Source of the DNA: Nanobdellota archaeon
GTDB taxonomy: Archaea > Nanobdellota > Nanobdellia > Pacearchaeales > GW2011-AR1
Length of the DNA: 64,000 nucleotides
Assembly: GCA_018815925.1 (NCBI GenBank)
Contig: JAHIWS010000020.1
Location: 28,041-92,040 of the forward strand
Reading direction: 5' to 3'
Under the pieces are notes generated by a model. The model did no database searches. It saw only the letters and a list, made by a program, of their open reading frames with translations, and was not told where the DNA came from. This document shows positions 1 through 10,711 of the stretch, piece after piece (position 1 is the first letter of the stretch; the number at the start of each line of letters is the position of its first letter). The position numbers were made by a program, and so were the translations under genes.

Positions 1-311
1 GAAATTGTTTGATTAAGCAAAGAGATCCCCTTTGCTTGGATATTCTGATCTTGTGATAAAATCAATCTATGGGCGGCCCTCATGCTCACTTCAAAAGAGA
101 GTATAAATTTTTTGGATAACTTCTCAATTTCAGGGAAGGCTATCTGTCTTATCACAATTTCAATGTCTTTGTAAATTTGTCTTTCAGTAACCTTAAATTT
201 TTCAGAAAGGCTTTTAACAACTTGCACAGGTATTCCAAAACCTCCGGCTGCATTAAGATAATTCAAAATATCATTTCTCCTTTCTATGTAGTTTCCTTTT
301 TTCTCTGCCAT
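1..311 (-). CDS. Partial HTH-type DNA-binding protein (runs off left edge)
   Basis: Reverse-strand reading frame MAEKKGNYIERRNDILNYLNAAGGFGIPVQVVKSLSEKFKVTERQIYKDIEIVIRQIAFPEIEKLSKKF...; winged-helix-like pattern; no stop before window edge. Confidence 0.7.
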   Translation of the reverse strand, partial: MAEKKGNYIERRNDILNYLNAAGGFGIPVQVVKSLSEKFKVTERQIYKDIEIVIRQIAFPEIEKLSKKFILSFEVSMRAAHRLILSQDQNIQAKGISLLNQTI

Positions 312-370
312 TTTTTGAATCAAATCGAAACAGGTTCTCTCTTAAAGGTCATTTCATATCCAAAACCAAT

Positions 371-471
371 AGTTCAAAGTTCATATCTATAGAAATATGA
401 ACTTTTGAACAATCTCTTGGTTTTTTGCTAAAAGTTCAAATAATCCAATTGAACTTTCTGAACTATTGAAC
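371..471. repeat. Cluster of GTTCAA/TTGAAC repeats in inverted arrangement (iteron/operator-like)
   Basis: GTTCAAAGTTCATAT (372-386) versus ATATGAACTTTTGAAC (395-410); AGTTCAA...TTGAACT (433-455); CTGAAC and TTGAAC up to 471. Confidence 0.7.
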
Positions 472-473
472 AA

Positions 474-2243
474 TCATAAAACCTTATATTGTCCATGAGA
501 TACTTTCTCGATTATTCCTGACACCTCCATTGTTTTGAGTGCATTATTGAAATTAGTTTTACCAATTCCTTTGTTAGCAGCTTTTTCTAATCCTTCATTT
601 GTTTGAAATTCTTTTATTCCTTTTTCCTTAAACCATTTCTTTAAAACTTCAATACATTTGTCCTCTTTGTTCTTTTTGACGAATTCGCCAGAGTAAACCA
701 TTTTAATCTCATCTTCAAGAAATGTAACCAAAAGTTTCATCGGTGGCAACTCTGATTCATTTCTATTCTTTAATTGTTTCAAAACCAAATTTCCTCCCTT
801 CCTTTCTGCTTTAAGAATTGCATCTGCATAATTTGCCAAGTCGCTTGATCCCCTTAACTCATCCATCTCATCTCCAGCAGATCCACCCTTACGATTATGA
901 TGTAACAAAAGAATTGAGCAATTGTACTTTTCGACTAAAGGCCTTAAAGTATCGACAAACAATTCAGATACACTTCCTGCATCATTCTCATCAAAAGAGA
1001 TGGCCCTTCTATAAGTATCAATCACTAATAACTTAGGTTTATGTTCTTCCAATATTTTCTCAATTGCTTCAATGTCTCTTTTTTTATCAATCTTAATTGA
1101 AGAAAAACAAATAAATCCAATATCATATTCTCCCGTCAACCCTAATCCCTTTTTAACCATCGAAGTTCTTTTTTTCATTATCGCATATCCATTCTCTTTA
1201 TCGAGATAAATTACTTTTCCTTTTTTGGATTTGAACTTATTTAAAAAATCATTACCTGACGCAACAGCATAACATATCAAGATAGCCAAAAAAGTTTTCA
1301 AGACTCCTGCCTTTCCGACTAACAAACACACAGATCTATTTGCGATAATCTTTTCAATTATCCACTCTAATCCTTCGGTTTCGTAATCTTTTAAATTGCC
1401 TTCCCAGATAATATTCAGATCAACTTTCTGTTCTTTAATTTCTCGTGGTTTTAATCCATATTTTTCTTCTGCAATTTTTAAAACATTAACAAAATCTACT
1501 TTTCTTAAAGAACCACTTTTTGCATCAGAACAATCCATAAGACCTTCCTTTACTGCGATTGCAGCTGCAGGACCCCCACCAGAATTGCATCTAAAACAGT
1601 GCCACGTATTCTTAAAAGGATTTATCCAAAAGTTAGATTTTGTCTCAGAACCATGAATAGGATGGGAACCATAATATTCACTTCCCTGTTTTTTCAATCC
1701 AGCAGTTCCCCAAATATCTACAACAGATAAGTTATCTATATCCGAATCTTGAATTATTTTTGATACAGGAATTTCTTTCTTATCTTGGAAAGGTTTAACA
1801 AATTCAATAAGCTGATCATAATTAAGATTTGTTATTGGGATGTCATTCATGGCTTCATAAATTTTTCCAGAAGGATGAACTGATCCTGGCCCTATAACCT
1901 GAGTTCCCTGGCTCTGAACCTCTCCAATATGTTCTCCCTCTAATTTTAAAATAATTTTTTTCTTTAACCCTTCAACAAAAAAATAATTATGCATTCCATT
2001 TCCTGTTTTAACCTTAAATGTCTGAGGTAACTTTCCATCTATCAACATCTGCAATTTTGTGCTATCAGCATCTATCACTGCAAGATTATCATATCCACAT
2101 AAAACCCCATAATTCTCATCAGGAAGAAAATTCTTAATTTCACTGTAAGAATATGGTTTGTTAACCCAATCTGATTCAAAAGGCTTTTTCGTTCCCTTTT
2201 TTATCCTACAGAATTTTAAGTTTTGTAATGTTTCTGGTATCAT
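474..2243 (-). CDS. Replication protein: prim-pol-like N-terminus, CHC2-type zinc finger, RepA/AAA_25-like helicase, C-terminal winged helix
   Basis: GVLCGYDNLAVIDAD, GTQVIGPGSVHPSG (prim-pol-like); WHCFRCNSGGG (zinc finger); VCLLVGKAGVLKTFLA (Walker A-like), KLLVIDTYRRA, ILLLHHNRKGG. Confidence 0.85.
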   Translation of the reverse strand: MIPETLQNLKFCRIKKGTKKPFESDWVNKPYSYSEIKNFLPDENYGVLCGYDNLAVIDADSTKLQMLIDGKLPQTFKVKTGNGMHNYFFVEGLKKKIILKLEGEHIGEVQSQGTQVIGPGSVHPSGKIYEAMNDIPITNLNYDQLIEFVKPFQDKKEIPVSKIIQDSDIDNLSVVDIWGTAGLKKQGSEYYGSHPIHGSETKSNFWINPFKNTWHCFRCNSGGGPAAAIAVKEGLMDCSDAKSGSLRKVDFVNVLKIAEEKYGLKPREIKEQKVDLNIIWEGNLKDYETEGLEWIIEKIIANRSVCLLVGKAGVLKTFLAILICYAVASGNDFLNKFKSKKGKVIYLDKENGYAIMKKRTSMVKKGLGLTGEYDIGFICFSSIKIDKKRDIEAIEKILEEHKPKLLVIDTYRRAISFDENDAGSVSELFVDTLRPLVEKYNCSILLLHHNRKGGSAGDEMDELRGSSDLANYADAILKAERKGGNLVLKQLKNRNESELPPMKLLVTFLEDEIKMVYSGEFVKKNKEDKCIEVLKKWFKEKGIKEFQTNEGLEKAANKGIGKTNFNNALKTMEVSGIIEKVSHGQYKVL

Positions 2244-2560
2244 AGTATTTGCTGTCCATATTTAATTTTGTTAATTGGTTCCTGCTTACTAAGCCAGCAG
2301 AAAAAGCATTCCTTCATGTAATAATTTTCTCGAATGAAAATCCTTCCACATTTACATTTGTATATTTTCTCTTCGTCAACTTCCATTCCAGTATTACACT
2401 CAAATCCGAGATTAACAGCACATTCGAAGCAGAGCCAGAGAATATCCCATCTACCACTGCTGTTCTGGTCAACATAATACATTTCTTTTATTCTCCCACA
2501 TAGTTTACATCTCCTTCCTTTTTTCATTTTAAAAATAAAAAGGGGATTTTTCATCCCCAA
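2240..2560 (-). CDS. Small zinc-binding protein (multiple CxxC)
   Basis: CKLCGRIKE, CFEC, CKCGRIF, CFFCW. Confidence 0.6.
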   Translation of the reverse strand: MGMKNPLFIFKMKKGRRCKLCGRIKEMYYVDQNSSGRWDILWLCFECAVNLGFECNTGMEVDEEKIYKCKCGRIFIRENYYMKECFFCWLSKQEPINKIKYGQQIL

Positions 2561-2564
2561 AAAA

Positions 2565-2885
2565 TTAAAGTGGCTTTAAGACAATCATTTCCTTTCCAAA
2601 TTTCGGACTTTTGTCTTTAGTGATTTTCACTTTCTGACCAATCCAATTGACGTCATCTTCGCCGTACTTTCCAATCAAATTTGAAATTGAAAAGTTGTTC
2701 AAGAAAACATCAAACTTCAATTGTCCGCTGTCTACTGTTGCCACTAATCTGTCGCCATGCTTGGTTTCCAGGTCCTTAATTTTCTGGATGGAAACATCCA
2801 TTTCCTTAACATATTCCAGATCTTCATCGGACGTCGGTTTGACCTTGATGGTCGGCAGAATTTCTTTAGCTTTTCTAAGCACCAT
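2565..2885 (-). CDS. Small hypothetical protein of the element, possibly OB-fold/ssDNA-binding
   Basis: ORF packed between element genes; beta-rich C-terminus; function is a guess. Confidence 0.5.
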   Translation of the reverse strand: MVLRKAKEILPTIKVKPTSDEDLEYVKEMDVSIQKIKDLETKHGDRLVATVDSGQLKFDVFLNNFSISNLIGKYGEDDVNWIGQKVKITKDKSPKFGKEMIVLKPL

Positions 2886-2925
2886 TGTTTAACCTCCTGC
2901 AATTTAATTATCTCTTCGAAGAGCA

Positions 2926-3111
2926 TCATTTTTCCGCCTCCTCTAAAGTCGAAATTTCAGAAATAGAAAGGAGGACAATTTTCCCAGTTTTATCTCTAAT
3001 TTTTATAAAAGAATTGTCTGCAGCTAACAAATGCCCACGGTAATAAAAGCTACTCCTTAAAATTATTTTGACATATTTCCCAATCAAATTATTACAATCA
3101 ATCGAATCCAT
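2926..3111 (-). CDS. Sm/Lsm-like small protein
   Basis: LIGKYVKIILRSSFYYRGHLLAADNSFIKIRDKTGKIVLLSISEI resembles an Sm-fold core. Confidence 0.55.
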   Translation of the reverse strand: MDSIDCNNLIGKYVKIILRSSFYYRGHLLAADNSFIKIRDKTGKIVLLSISEISTLEEAEK

Positions 3112-3113
3112 TT

Positions 3114-3296
3114 TTACCTCTTTTTTTTAATCTCCTCGAGAATTTGATTTAATTTTACTTCGACACTTTTTGATTGAAACATTCTTGATCGACAAAAAGA
3201 GGTTACAGTAGGGAACCCTTCCATCTTCGCAAGTTTCTCCAATCTCTCTTTCTCTTCCTTCGTCGCCTTTATCATAACGAAATGATTTTTAGCCAT
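3114..3296 (-). CDS. Small basic protein, possible ribbon-helix-helix regulator
   Basis: HFVMIKATKEEKERLEKLAKMEGFPTVTSFCRSRM pattern. Confidence 0.5.
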   Translation of the reverse strand: MAKNHFVMIKATKEEKERLEKLAKMEGFPTVTSFCRSRMFQSKSVEVKLNQILEEIKKKR

Positions 3297-3498
3297 TTTT
3301 CACCTCTTCAAATTTAATAAGTGTATTTTTTCCAGTGCTAAGAATTATAATTTGCCCATTCATTTTCAAAATTTCAAGAATTTCTTTAACAGTTCTGTAT
3401 CTCAACATAGCCTCTGAACAGATTTGGGAAGGAGAAACAGCTACATCTTTCTCCCTTAGATAATTTAACACCTTTTGAATAGATTTTGTATTTGCCAT
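3289..3498 (-). CDS. Winged-helix DNA-binding protein
   Basis: IQKVLNYLREKDVAVSPSQICSEAMLRYRTVKEILEILKMNGQIII. Confidence 0.6.
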   Translation of the reverse strand: MANTKSIQKVLNYLREKDVAVSPSQICSEAMLRYRTVKEILEILKMNGQIIILSTGKNTLIKFEEVKNG

Positions 3499-3503
3499 CT
3501 TGT

Positions 3504-3566
3504 TTGATATTTAATATCAATCAATAGTTCTTTTTTTATAAATCTTTTGGTTGGATATTAAGTATC
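3504..3566. promoter_or_regulatory. Operator-like palindromes in a divergent promoter
   Basis: Perfect palindrome TTGATATTTAATATCAA (3504-3520); related imperfect GATATTAAGTATC (3554-3566). Confidence 0.55.
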
Positions 3567-3622
3567 ATACTAATACTACACAATGACAACATTTATAAAA
3601 TCAGTTTGACATAAAATACAAT

Positions 3623-4540
3623 ATGGATATAAAAAAGAGCAGCAGCGGAAGAGACAAGATAAAAGTTATTGAAAGTGTCCCATATAGCCAATTAATATTT
3701 TTGATCTCCTCTGGAAAAACCTATGCATTAGAGATAGCTAAAGCCAGAGGGAAAAAAGATAGCTCCCCAACAGCAAAACAATTGGACCAGTTAAAAAAAA
3801 GGGGGTTTCTAACTTCAAAAAAAGGGGGGTTACTTAATAAGAATATTTATTCAATTAATTGGAAAAAAATTAATAAAGAATTTGTCAATTATGTTTTTAA
3901 CATTTTCGAGAAAGATGTTAAAGATTATAAAAAAATAAGTAAAAAAGAGCAGGATGAACCAAAGGAAAATCACTACAACGAACTTCTAAAAAAAATAAAA
4001 ACCAAAAACTTTGATAAGGATATCAAAAACCACGAGTACCTCATCACGTTATTAAAACTTACCTTCCCTCTTGTTGAGAATAGAGAAAAAACCATTAGAG
4101 AGATATTTGAAGATTTAAGAATAAATTTTCCTCAACCACCAGGCACTTTTGTTGATCACCCTTCAAAATTTCATGATGAAAAAAAGAGAAGAGAATCAGG
4201 AGAATACTACACAGATCTTATTGAAGGGAGAAAAAGAGATGAAAAATACGCCCAACTAGAAGAGTTCATTAAAATAACAAGAGGTGTTTCAGATACAGTT
4301 GGAATGCGTGGTATTGAACGTCTATGGAAATATCTGCAAATCAAATATACTGCTTCACACCCAAATAATGAAATAAGAAAAGAATTATTGCAAACAGTTC
4401 CAAAAGAGGTGATGGAAATTATAAAAGAAAATTGTTTCAAAGGAACAAAACCCACCGAAAATAAAGAAGAAGATTCTGAAAATGCAAATCAAAATGTTGT
4501 CTTATCGACGGAAAAAGGAGAAATTGAAAATGAAAAGTAA
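3623..4540 (+). CDS. Element-encoded protein with N-terminal winged-helix-like region
   Basis: Long ORF transcribed divergently from the element operon. Confidence 0.6.
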   Translation: MDIKKSSSGRDKIKVIESVPYSQLIFLISSGKTYALEIAKARGKKDSSPTAKQLDQLKKRGFLTSKKGGLLNKNIYSINWKKINKEFVNYVFNIFEKDVKDYKKISKKEQDEPKENHYNELLKKIKTKNFDKDIKNHEYLITLLKLTFPLVENREKTIREIFEDLRINFPQPPGTFVDHPSKFHDEKKRRESGEYYTDLIEGRKRDEKYAQLEEFIKITRGVSDTVGMRGIERLWKYLQIKYTASHPNNEIRKELLQTVPKEVMEIIKENCFKGTKPTENKEEDSENANQNVVLSTEKGEIENEK

Positions 4541-4636
4541 ATGTTCCTTTTATACCACACCTATCCTAAAACAGATACCGGCCCAATATGTTCTTACAGC
4601 CCCTGATACCCTCGAATTTAAAGGTTTTAGCTCTAT

Positions 4637-5788
4637 GTGCATTCTTGGTACTTTACAGGCTTAATTCCAGGAATCCACATAAATCTTGTAGGGGTTTCTA
4701 TTGTTTCTTTATCAGCATCTTTACTAGCATCTATAAACCCTCTTTATCTTTTGATTTTTATTGTTGCAACGGCAATCACCCACACTTTTCTTGATTTTAT
4801 TCCTAGTGTTTTTTTAGGATGCCCAGACACAGACACAGAACTTTCAATTTTACCGGGCCATGAACTTTTAAAAAAAGGCCAAGGATATTCTGCAATAATG
4901 CTAACTGCCTATGGGAGTCTAGCAGCAATATTTTTATTACTTATTATTACTTGGCCTTCAATAATAATTATTTCAAAAATACAAAACATTCTTCCAATAA
5001 TAATTCCAGGATTATTAGTATTAGCTACTCTTTTTTTAATTTCAACAGAAAAAAATAAATCAAAGGCGATATTTGCCTTTCTCTTAACAGGAATCTTAGG
5101 ATTAATTATTTTAAATTTAGAAAAAGTTGACCAACCTCTTCTTCCTTTATTAACAGGATTATTTGGAGGGGCAACAATTTTATTATCTATAAAAAACAAA
5201 ACCCAAATTCCCAAACAAACTCTTAAACTAACAAAAACTAAAATTTCCAAACCCATCTTAGGAGCTTTAATAGCATCCCCAATATGCTCTTTTCTTCCAG
5301 GTTTAGGATCAGGACAAGCAGCAATCATAGGAAATTCAATTGCCCAAACAAATAAAAAAGGTTTTCTAATTTTATTAGGTGCAACAAATACTTTAGTAAT
5401 GGGTTTTTCTTTTATCTCATTGTATGCAATATTAAAAACAAGAACAGGAGCAGCATCAGCAATTAAAGAAATTTTGGGAACCTTGGAAACAAATTATTTA
5501 ATTTTAATCCTGTTAGTAATTTTAATTTCAGGAGTAATTTCTTTTTATTTAACAAAAAACTTAGCAAAATTCTTTTCACACAAAATAACAAAAATAAATT
5601 ACACAAAAATTTCCCTAGCGACCCTATTAATATTAACACTAATTGTTGTCTTAGTTTCAGGTTTTTGGGGCTTGCTGATTTTAATAATCTCAACTCTAAC
5701 AGGAATCTATTGCATCAAACTAAAAGTAAAAAGAACTCTTATGATGGGTTGTCTAATGTTACAGACGATTTTATGGTATTTGTTTTAA
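4637..5788 (+). CDS. TctA/DUF112-like archaeal membrane protein, 5' end apparently disrupted
   Basis: FTGLIPGIHINLV, SPICSFLPGLGSGQAAIIGN and multiple TM helices; the N-terminus continues only in other frames. Confidence 0.7.
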   Translation: MHSWYFTGLIPGIHINLVGVSIVSLSASLLASINPLYLLIFIVATAITHTFLDFIPSVFLGCPDTDTELSILPGHELLKKGQGYSAIMLTAYGSLAAIFLLLIITWPSIIIISKIQNILPIIIPGLLVLATLFLISTEKNKSKAIFAFLLTGILGLIILNLEKVDQPLLPLLTGLFGGATILLSIKNKTQIPKQTLKLTKTKISKPILGALIASPICSFLPGLGSGQAAIIGNSIAQTNKKGFLILLGATNTLVMGFSFISLYAILKTRTGAASAIKEILGTLETNYLILILLVILISGVISFYLTKNLAKFFSHKITKINYTKISLATLLILTLIVVLVSGFWGLLILIISTLTGIYCIKLKVKRTLMMGCLMLQTILWYLF

Positions 5789-7249: not shown

Positions 7250-10200
7250 TTAAACCCATTCTCCTAAACCTGTTTGTTTTTCAGCTTCCTTACCAAAAAT
7301 ACTATCAATATATCCTTTAACAAGTTCAAGGTTTTGTTTTACATAGGGTGAAAGATTATACTGCTTGGCTAAATTAAGCGCAGGTTCTAAATACTTTTTA
7401 ATTCCACCTTCATGAACTGTAAAAATTATTTTACCTCCACACTTAGGACAAATCCCTGTTAAAGGAGGCCTCCTTAAAATCTCATTGCAAGCAACACACC
7501 TAAATTCTTGGGTAGAAAACTTTCTTAAATTCCCCCTAAGATCTTTCATAAAATGTCTTTCAATTACTAACCTTGCTGTATCTGAAGTGTCGACAGCCCT
7601 TATTTTCTCAACTAACTCCATTTGATGTTTAAGTTTTTCTTGCATTGTTCCAAGACTTTTATAAGAAGAACATCTTATTCCTTTATTAAAATCAAAGGTA
7701 TCATGTGTATAACCCATTCCAATAAAAGGATTTTCTCCTTTGTCCAATAAACTTTTAACATTTTTTATTTTTACTTCAGACGAGTGTTTTTTTTGTTCAG
7801 CAGCCCGATAAAGTTCTAAAGGATAGCTCTTTACAAATTCAAAATCTAAAATCTGATCATCTACTTCCCCTGCATCAATTTTTGCATTTAAAACTAATGG
7901 AGCATCTTGGGTTCCTCCTCTGTGGCTTGGCAAAAACTGTCTTGAAAAATTTAACAAAACATCGCCCAACAACATCACAGCCATTTCATCACCATCACAA
8001 TCTCTTCTAATAGCCGCGTGCATATAAGGAGAAGCTAAAAGCCCAAGAGTTTTTGAAAAACCAATAAATCTACAAATTACTCCTGCACAATTATGGGGTG
8101 CCATACACACACCCATTTTACCTATTAAGTCATCCCTATTTTTTACATTATAAAAAGGTTTTAATTTGTAAAACCTAACAAGTTCCTCATCAACAAAATT
8201 AGCAACCCTAATAAAAACATCATCAGCTTTTTCATCAGGTGTATCAGGAGAACTTGGAAGAAGAATATCATGAGGCATTAATTCTATTATTTGTTCTTCA
8301 TTTACAATATCTTTTCCATCTATATCCTTAACATACCCCAGGTCCCTTAATTTTTCAACATCCACACCTATTTCCCTTGGTTTAAATGCAACCAAAGGAA
8401 GTTCAGTAGCATCAAACCTAATTGTCCCATCTTTATTTACTTGCAGCTCATTTCTTGCTCTTAAAATGCCTTTAGAAAGATTTTCCATCATATGTCCCTC
8501 TGAACTCGTACCTCTAACCCCTTTAATTAACAAAGGTATTTCTGTTTTTGAAAGCCCAAGATTTCCAACTGCTTCATTAAAAAAATGATTTATGTCCAAA
8601 GAAAAAGTACAATAAGTTTGTTTATATTCATGTTCTTCACAAGCAACAAAACTTTTTTCCTTGCACCTAGGACAATAATACATTTTTCGAGTTTTACACC
8701 CGCAAATTTCACAAACAGAATAAATTGTTTCTTTTTTACACTTATCACAATTGTAAATTGGAAATGCACTTCTAACACTCCCTTGCTCACAAGCAGCCTG
8801 AATACTCCTTAATCTTCCTCCTTCTTTTCCAACAGGAAATAAAACATTTGGGCTTCCAACAAGTTTCCTAAGTTTTGCTTTTTCAGGGCGCCCCATTCGT
8901 GCCCCAATAAATTCTCCTGATTTATCTCTAATTTCAAACTCAGAAACAGAATTAACAATCTCCAAAATATTTTTACCAGATTTGAATTTATTTTCATCCA
9001 TAAAATCCCTTAATAAATTTTTTTTATTGCAAACAAGTTCAAAATCAAGACCAAGATTAGCCAATAAAGCTTTACTATGTTCTTTATTTAAAACAACATT
9101 TTCAATTGTAACCACATGTTCTATACCTAATAATTCCAAAGCTCGCTTTCCTTGCTTAAAATTTTCTTGATCTATTTTTGCATATGGAAAAATTATTTTT
9201 CCATCAATCTTTGAAACTTTTAACCATTCAATAAGATTAAAAAATTCTAAAGGAGAAATTTCCTTCCAATAAAAAATATAATTTGGGTGCAAAGAAATCT
9301 CAAATTCCCTGCTTATTTTAACAGCCGTATCAAAATCTATATTAAAAAAATTTAAATTTCTTGAAAATTCTTTATCTTTCTCTTGTAATTCCAACCCCCA
9401 CCACTCTTCAACATATCCTGGTTTAATCAAATCAGCATTTCTGTTTGCAACATCACTAAAAGGAAAAAGAATGTCCCCTAGATAAATAATCTCCTCTACA
9501 TCAGGGTAAAATAATTTTGCTTCTTCAATTGATTTTAATTTTTTTACACTTCCATTAAATAATTTAACTATAGGCCCATCTATCTGATCACAAACCGTGA
9601 TTGCTGCCCCTTTAGTTGGTTTTTCAATCTTTAATTGACTTCCAATAGCCAAAAAACTATCTGTTATTGCCATTGTAGCAGGGTGTACAGAAGCTGCACT
9701 AAATCCAGACACCCTTCCCCTTCCATACCTAAATCTAAACGCTCCTGATCTTGAAGGATGCCCAAAAACAGGTCTTCCAGCAACAAGATCTTTAATATAA
9801 GTTGGGGAATCAAGTGCCTTTCCCACATCCCTTTTTTCATGAATTTTAATATACTCTTCAAGAAAATCAAAACCAGTGGATTTAAATCCTCTTTTTTTTA
9901 AACTTGTCAAAAGCCTAAAACCTTTTGCAGCTTTTTGAGCCAAACCTTCTCCAAGAATTAAACAAAATCCACTCCTCAAATAATTAGTTTCAACTCTTTC
10001 TAAATTTTTATAATTAGATACTTCAAGTTTTTCAGAAGGATCTCCTGAAACTTGGATAGGAAGATTCTTTGCTAAAAAAAGTGTTTCTTCTTCTGTAGGC
10101 ATATATTGGAGATTAGTGATTCTATCATGAAAATCAGAGAGTTCTGTAAATACTCTTTTTATTTCTTCCTCTGAAGGATCATGTTTTTCATACCCAAACA

Positions 10201-10711
10201 TTTCTCTAAGATAATCTATTAAAATCAAAACCATACAACTTGCAGTAGTTCCTGCACTTCGTATTGGTCCTGAAAAACCTGCAACAAAATAATCCTTGCC
10301 TTGTCTTGTTTTTCTAAGTTTTAACCCAGTATAACCTTCAATTGGGCTTGAAACAACACCTAAAGTAAGGTATGCAAAACCAACCCTAACACCTGCATCA
10401 ATTGCCTCAAGCAAATCTTTAAATTTACAAAATTTTTGTTTTGCAACCTCTTCTGCAATTTTAAATGCAACAGCCACATCTAATTTCCCATATTCTTTTT
10501 CAAGACCTAAAATCCTTTTTGCAATACTAGATTCTTCCATCTGAGGATAAATAGTAGATATTAACCCTACAACCTTTTCTGCCATACTCATAGCAAGAGG
10601 AATCTCAACCTTATCTACAGGATCTAATCCTTTAGCCCTAGCTTCCTCTGCAACTTCATAAACTCCTTTGACCCCCTCTTCAATCATCTTAAAATATTTT
10701 TGAGTGTTCAT
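7250..10711 (-). CDS. polC: DNA polymerase II (PolD) large subunit DP2
   Basis: 1153 aa; [40 protein letters not shown]; zinc-finger motifs; no obvious intein. Confidence 0.97.
   Translation of the reverse strand: [1153 protein letters not shown]

Follow-up and report, generated by a model that had tools for sequence, protein, structure and literature searches.

A terminase-bearing integrative element in tctA of a Nanobdellota archaeon: a possible satellite of tailed viruses

In bacteria, satellites hijack tailed viruses and have a central role in gene transfer and defence. Travel in the particles of another virus is well known there, whereas in archaea it has hardly been described, and the known archaeal satellites ride spindle-shaped viruses. 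To our knowledge, the sole published archaeal element with a terminase and without a capsid was dismissed as a relic. Satellites of archaeal viruses are mentioned in passing in a review (PMC11389934). The closest precedent for the element described here is NitKor-E1, a cryptic integrated element of the thaumarchaeon Candidatus Nitrosopumilus koreensis AR1 (PMC6563490). We analysed a stretch of 64,000 nucleotides (the window) from a Nanobdellota archaeon, which corresponds to bases 28,041-92,040 of contig C13 (JAHIWS010000020.1). Its left part is the right end of a 19.6 kb element inserted in the host gene tctA. The element carries its own integrase and replicase and a complete terminase, and no virion gene was recognised in it. 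We read it as an integrative plasmid-like backbone with an acquired terminase that would be packaged by a helper tailed virus. We infer this mobilisation from gene content and give the reading an even chance. No archaeal satellite of this kind with a terminase was found in the open-access literature that was searched.

The assembly is 0.93 Mb in size and 88% complete. The 28 kb to the left of the window were added to the analysis, and C13 coordinates are used for those parts (Table 1). G-codes denote genomes of relatives and L-codes the loci or viral contigs compared. The element spans C13:13,083-32,700 and is inserted near codon 20 of tctA. An initial annotation of the window, made from the sequence alone, had placed an integrated plasmid- or virus-like element at 1-4540. 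The feature is there, but its boundary had to be moved: the element ends with attR, so that window positions 1-4660 hold about a quarter of it, and the remaining ~15 kb lie left of the window edge. Extension to the left brought in the integrase and attL, 15 kb away, and, immediately beyond the window edge, the terminase genes. The GC content is 31.5% in the element and 28-29% in the flanks.

The empty site is the state of the tctA locus in relatives. Orthologs of tctA are present in 48 of 56 relatives and those of tyrS in 55 of 56. In G005, G024, G027 and G002 the two genes adjoin each other in divergent orientation with about 100 bp between them, and here 19.7 kb separate them. The displaced 5′ fragment of tctA, MLLEVFIFILLGILAGTITGL, adjoins tyrS at attL with a stop codon immediately after it, and the rest of the gene (TGLIPGIHINLVG...) runs from window position 4655 onward. 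When the flanks were joined at the shared ACAGGC, an intact tctA of 395 codons with zero internal stops was restored. The insertion has displaced the first ~20 codons, and the present start is a GTG inside the end of the element, from which the new protein reads MHSWYFTG and then LIPG of the host. Long direct att repeats were not found at the element ends, which share just the 6-bp core and imperfect flanking similarity.

Integrase, att sites and empty site are all present, as in a site-specific integrative element, and the integration proposed in the initial annotation is borne out. Misassembly is unlikely, as both halves of one host gene flank the element on a single contig and rejoin in frame. 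A cluster of the core genome was rejected as well: the genes are absent from relatives, which have tyrS and tctA at the short distance given above. We favour one unit over two adjacent elements, although part of the cargo may belong to a second one, because there is one outer att pair, with the integrase at one end and a p305-type regulator, also seen in G227, at the other.

A gene for the large terminase subunit (TerL) and a probable gene for the small one (TerS) come next after the replicase gene and share its orientation. TerL matches Terminase_3 (8e-8), Terminase_6N (3e-7) and the PHROG large-terminase family phrog_979 (3e-25). Its Walker A (GGASGGGKS), Walker B (AVIDEA) and nuclease acidic residues are intact and invariant in an alignment with viral TerLs of 49-63% identity. 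On these sequence features its identity as TerL is certain. The 145-aa protein is probably TerS, judged by its helix-turn-helix (HTH), its position directly upstream of TerL and a weak match (43% over 44 aa, E 7e-4) to the open reading frame (ORF) that immediately precedes TerL in viral contig L056. The relatives of TerL belong to tailed viruses. In IMG/VR they were found in 424 confirmed stretches, the best at 64%. Others are in Bacteroidota prophages, and Cellulophaga phage phi10:1 has one at 46%.

In the nearest relatives of this TerL (52-65% identity) the portal gene is right behind TerL, and a portal homolog directly follows it in all 12 of the nearest viral loci (L005-L016). In L017 and L018, ORFs of 495 and 771 aa without a search link to portals occupy that position. 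By PHROGs, TerL is followed by portal, protease and capsid genes in L009 and L010, and a portal was confirmed for L005 and L025. In the element, TerL is directly followed by a 200-aa gene with a 4-bp overlap, and then the coding strand switches. We considered the 200-aa gene as a duplicated TerL nuclease domain, which was unsupported (hhalign probability 0.9%). Pfam and PHROGs recognised no portal, head protease, HK97 capsid or tail gene anywhere in the element, so the remark that no capsid is visible in the window holds for the whole of it. The portal (phrog_9232, phrog_12) and capsid (PF05065) profiles had no match in the metagenome-assembled genome and were positive in control genomes. A tblastn search of the element with dozens of head-gene queries from relatives gave a single match of 38 residues (E 0.001), which we took as chance. 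Because 91% of the element is coding and every gap is ≤380 bp, there is no room for a decayed head module. A helper provirus may lie elsewhere in the host genome, since the assembly is 88% complete. With its own integrase and replication module and no recognisable virion gene, the element has the gene content of a phage satellite. What it has of a tailed virus is a large terminase with intact motifs, and not the virion genes.

The main rival explanation is a defective provirus. A temperate tailed virus would have lost its head and tail genes by clean deletion and gained restriction-modification (R-M) genes, and the terminase would be a relic. We take this seriously and regard it as rather doubtful. 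It fits the observation that every near TerL relative sits in a full tailed virus, and that L007 and L009 carry TerL (56%) together with a prim-pol protein (27%) ~3.5 kb upstream, in the order seen here. Tailed proviruses that carry defence cargo have been described in Woesearchaeales (PMC11705971), a defective archaeal provirus is also in the literature, and the authors of NitKor-E1 preferred to see that element as a relic (PMC6563490). However, the catalytic residues of TerL are all retained, the densely coding element has no head or tail remnants, and its integrase and regulator backbone is common to tctA elements without viral genes. A complete but unrecognised virus is very improbable. 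Several ORFs are without annotation, and the unassigned proteins of 290, 305, 321 and 198-231 aa would have to include a diverged capsid and portal. All ORFs longer than 325 aa are assigned (methylase, helicase, TerL and replicase), which leaves none of portal size. A membrane segment is present at the N-terminus of the 321-aa protein, the 305-aa protein resembles a regulator and has a homolog in G227, and a search of viral contigs with the 290-aa protein gave no match.

Relatives of the integrase with 41-76% identity are encoded in G414, G357, G417 and G022, always with the 158-aa partner beside them. In G357 and G022, from two other genera, an element is inserted at the same tctA codon and has the integrase pair at one of its ends. 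At the opposite end these elements supply a new in-frame tctA start (MLLALLAALLLGVASGTITG before LIPG in G357 and MAILGLLVALLLGVTCGTLTG before IIPG in G022). G227 has a short-start tctA (MYSRTFTG before LIPG), and then a 305-aa homolog, a ribbon-helix-helix (RHH) gene and an Sm-like gene in the order seen here. The other end of that element is off the contig, and it is probably a fourth insertion at tctA. No recognisable terminase or capsid gene was found in the tctA elements of G357, G022 and G227. A match to PHROG 1383 (virion structural) in the G022 element was rejected as a capsid, as the sequence looks LemA-like. Because these sister elements are without terminase, the backbone appears to be non-viral, a plasmid-like integrative element to which the terminase looks added.

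The sister elements also bear on a further alternative, an ordinary integrative plasmid or defence island that moves by natural transformation, conjugation or vesicles and holds the terminase as a passenger or for a function other than packaging. Sister tctA elements in G357, G022, G227 and G414 move without a terminase, modules of Sm-like and replicase genes recur in other plasmid-like loci, and the named plasmid closest to the zinc region of the prim-pol protein is pH6Ac of Methanothrix, 12 kb in size (32%). Against this, the TerS-like and TerL genes are part of the transcription unit of the replicase, and the pair keeps its ATPase and nuclease motifs intact, which is best explained by packaging. 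We consider this alternative improbable.

This tyrosine-integrase family repeatedly targets the 5′ end of tctA, an insertion hotspot in at least three to four genera, with the first ~20 codons replaced (L156:1-14510, L158:4830-17390, L193:2048-10501 and C13:13083-32700 here). The site is a mobile-element hotspot inside a protein-coding gene of uncultured archaea, in which the element replaces the 5′ end of the gene, whereas use of the 3′ end has been reported for Thaumarchaeota. The TATA-box-like motif CCTTTTATACCACA of the right end recurs at the matching place in the right ends of G227 (CCTTTTATACCACA; L193) and G022 (CCTTTTATACCACA; L158). It may serve as an element-supplied promoter from which tctA with its new start is expressed, or as a site for the integrase; both are guesses. 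The cargo differs among tctA elements. The Cas4-like PD-(D/E)XK nuclease of this element is 89% identical to that of G357 (L156:4457-5134), although core genes of the two genera are far less similar, which points to recent exchange of cargo between tctA elements.

On the reading that a helper packages the element, its terminase was acquired from a tailed virus. On infection by a related tailed virus, the element would excise and be copied by its own replicase. Its terminase would then dock on the helper portal and pack element DNA into helper procapsids, the integrase would insert the element into tctA of the next host, and the cargo would defend that host. Several points weigh against this. 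Excision, induction, particle and helper are predicted from the gene complement; no pac or cos site was identified in the element; and the TerS assignment is weak. Bacterial satellites usually borrow the TerL of the helper and keep TerS at most, and it is unusual that both are carried without a portal. So far the terminase-bearing form has a single example, since TerL occurs in two of 281 genomes of the class and the second is a fragment. Finally, the similar terminase of NitKor-E1 was judged a likely relic by its authors (PMC6563490).

An apparent tailed-virus fragment, L166 (G221:C4:1-12365), comes from the same archaeal family and is a candidate for the helper type. Its TerL is 22% identical to that of the element, and ORFs of TerS, portal and capsid size follow the usual order, as judged by size and order, not by profile. 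We take it from this contig that tailed viruses infect this family.

The initial annotation described a minus-strand array led by a fusion of prim-pol-like motifs, a CHC2-like zinc finger and a RecA-like helicase, plus a divergent gene. Both the array (474-3498) and the divergent ORF (3623-4540) were found as given there, and the fusion, the 589-aa replicase, was matched by Prim-Pol PF09250 (1.2e-12), Zn_ribbon_DnaG (9e-8) and AAA_25 (2.7e-29), all of which exceed the curated cut-offs. The layout is an archaeo-eukaryotic primase (AEP) prim-pol domain at residues ~1-150, a DnaG/CHC2-type zinc domain at 172-225, a RepA/AAA_25 helicase at 280-490 and a C-terminal winged helix at 520-589. Among PDB sequences, residues 172-241 matched the DnaG zinc domain 1d0q (1.7e-8) and residues 292-470 matched RepA 1g8y (2.6e-8). 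An AlphaFold model was built from an alignment of seven sequences. It is confident for residues 1-150 (pLDDT mostly 81-91) and poor for the helicase part. Among solved structures, the modelled N-terminus best matched the prim-pol of pRN1 (1rni, 1ro0 and 3m1m; Foldseek E 3e-9 to 3e-8, probability 1.00). AEP motif I (D58/D60 in VIDADS) and motif II (H85 in HNYFF) are invariant in seven homologs, and motif III has an acidic residue, E108 here and either D or E in the homologs. An AEP fold with its catalytic residues, as suggested at the outset, is thus found in the model and the alignment. Sequence and model identify the protein as an AEP prim-pol replicase of the mobile-element type, and priming activity is predicted. 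Close relatives of the replicase, the integrase and the 200-aa protein were not found in IMG/VR.

PrimQH proteins of the PrimPol-PV1 supergroup combine an AEP domain, PriCT/ZnBD, a P-loop helicase and a winged helix (PMC5862659). The replicase has this domain order of AEP, zinc-binding, P-loop helicase and winged helix, and resembles PrimQH by architecture, as set beside the published description and not by sequence clustering. As in pRN1 ORF904 and PrimPol-PV1 replicases, an AEP domain, a zinc-binding domain, a RepA-type helicase and a winged helix are joined in one protein, and the pRN1 prim-pol is the nearest fold to the N-terminus. Unlike those proteins, the zinc domain here is DnaG/CHC2-like. 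Its ligands are H-H-C-C, with His and not Cys as the first (SHPIH...HCFRC), likewise in homologs L160 and L161.

For the small genes upstream of the replicase, the initial annotation had named Sm-like, possible RHH, winged-HTH and zinc-ribbon proteins. The first three are supported by profiles with scores below curated cut-offs, and the zinc ribbon was recognised by eye, with no significant Pfam match for that 106-aa cysteine-rich protein. The second 106-aa protein also had no Pfam match; as a guess, it is a candidate oligonucleotide-binding-fold single-stranded DNA-binding protein. The 60-aa RHH protein is 41% identical to the RHH of the G227 tctA element and 42% to the second RHH of this element, beside the integrase. 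The 305-aa protein is 32% identical over 144 aa (E 5e-11) to a gene in the equivalent position beside tctA in G227, and a MarR/HTH_45-like gene occupies that position in G022. Homologs of the Sm-like protein are beside replicases in G025, G027 (two loci), G372, G227, G277 and G389. By profile, the ~60-aa Sm-like protein is found in 16 of 180 genomes, in mobile loci of the host's archaeal order. Its gene adjoins a replicase-like ORF, or is ≤3 genes from it, in at least eight loci (window 2926-3111, L092:12339-12515, L087:720-926, L162:9705-9890, L188, L189, L192 and L194), and these replicases have several unrelated helicase types. The protein possibly has a role in RNA-based replication control.

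At the left end, the catalytic R, HxxR, H and Y of the tyrosine recombinase are intact. We considered its 158-aa partner as a split core-binding domain and rejected this, as the model (pLDDT 71) weakly resembles HTH domains of ParB, KorB and Noc. The cargo includes a type III-like R-M cluster accompanied by nucleases, and the gene order finishes with the 200-aa gene, TerL, the TerS-like gene, the replicase operon and the 305-aa regulator-like protein. No relative of the 290-aa protein was found in Pfam, PHROG, NCBIfam, PADLOC or IMG/VR.

Table 1. Features of the element and its flanks, from left to right (C13, contig coordinates; L004, coordinates of the element's own locus)
Feature	Position	Strand	Evidence or remark
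tyrS	C13:12,043-12,993		left flank of element
attL core ACAGGC	C13:13,083-13,088		copy of attR core
HTH-like integrase partner, 158 aa	C13:13,178-13,654		left end
Tyrosine recombinase	C13:13,654-14,502		PF00589 6e-26
Small RHH gene	C13:14,551-14,730		
147-aa protein and 101-aa protein			after small RHH gene, before 290-aa protein
290-aa protein	C13:15,950-16,822 (L004:1950-2822)		
DUF4238 gene, then 198-aa protein			right of 290-aa gene; DUF4238 1.4e-42
Cas4-like PD-(D/E)XK nuclease	L004:4654-5301		right of 198-aa gene
ResIII-type helicase/restriction protein, then DUF365			right of Cas4-like nuclease
231-aa protein			right of DUF365; PD-(D/E)XK-like by eye
Type III-like Mod methylase			right of 231-aa gene; PADLOC MTase_III 8.5e-84
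Winged-HTH protein, then 321-aa protein			right of Mod methylase; N-terminal membrane segment in 321-aa protein
200-aa gene			between 321-aa gene and TerL
TerL, 467 aa	C13:26,515-27,918		wholly left of window, 7 bp beyond TerS-like gene
TerS-like gene, 145 aa, HTH	C13:27,926-28,363; window part 1-323	-	HTH_11 E 6e-4
Replicase, 589 aa	window 474-2243	-	Pfam, PDB sequences, structure model, motifs
Zinc-ribbon-like cysteine-rich protein, 106 aa	window 2240-2560	-	four CxxC/CxC pairs by eye
106-aa protein	window 2565-2885	-	just phrog_11517 at E 0.008
Sm-like protein, 61 aa	window 2926-3111	-	DUF6897 0.003, LSM 0.02
RHH protein, 60 aa	window 3114-3296	-	NikA-like 1e-4
Winged-helix protein, 69 aa	window 3289-3498	-	TFIIE_beta 2e-4; phrog_633 transcriptional regulator 6e-4
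Divergent regulator-like protein, 305 aa	window 3623-4540	+	right end of element
CCTTTTATACCACA motif, TATA-box-like	window 4546-4559	+	just inside attR
Host tctA (TctA/DUF112-type permease)	window 4637-5788	+	TctA PF01970 E 2e-41
attR core ACAGGC	window 4655-4660	.	
DP2-type archaeal DNA polymerase subunit	window 7250-10711		by eye

Compared with phage-inducible chromosomal islands (PICIs) and P4-like satellites of bacteria, which have 15-20 kb, an integrase at one end, their own primase-helicase, packaging gene(s), defence cargo and no capsid genes, the element has a similar plan. It differs in its archaeal host, in carrying TerL as well as TerS, in having no portal and in its unrelated integrase and regulators; it is also known from genes alone, with no helper known. 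Like the Woesearchaeales tailed proviruses WATPV (PMC11705971), it is integrated, has defence cargo and belongs to an order of small-genome archaea. WATPV, however, have capsid and tail genes and DISARM/Dnd cargo, whereas the cargo here is type III-like R-M. Like NitKor-E1, it lies in an archaeal chromosome, encodes a tyrosine integrase and a PD-(D/E)XK nuclease, and has no tailed-virus genes besides TerL and the TerS gene that immediately precedes it. The phylum differs, and the summary of NitKor-E1, from whose description the likeness is drawn, names VapBC and mentions no prim-pol replicase. Tentatively, and a little short of an even chance, we propose a class of archaeal satellites other than those of fuselloviruses, in which plasmid-like tctA elements would gain TerS and TerL but neither portal nor capsid, and would travel with the tailed viruses that infect small-genome archaea, with NitKor-E1 as an independent second case. 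What is surprising is that an archaeal integrative backbone of non-viral type bears a complete terminase, and a named att site, integrase family and terminase are now available for tests. Beside NitKor-E1, this second case has its complete terminase in the replicase operon of a backbone with non-viral sisters, which suggests that such elements may be functional.

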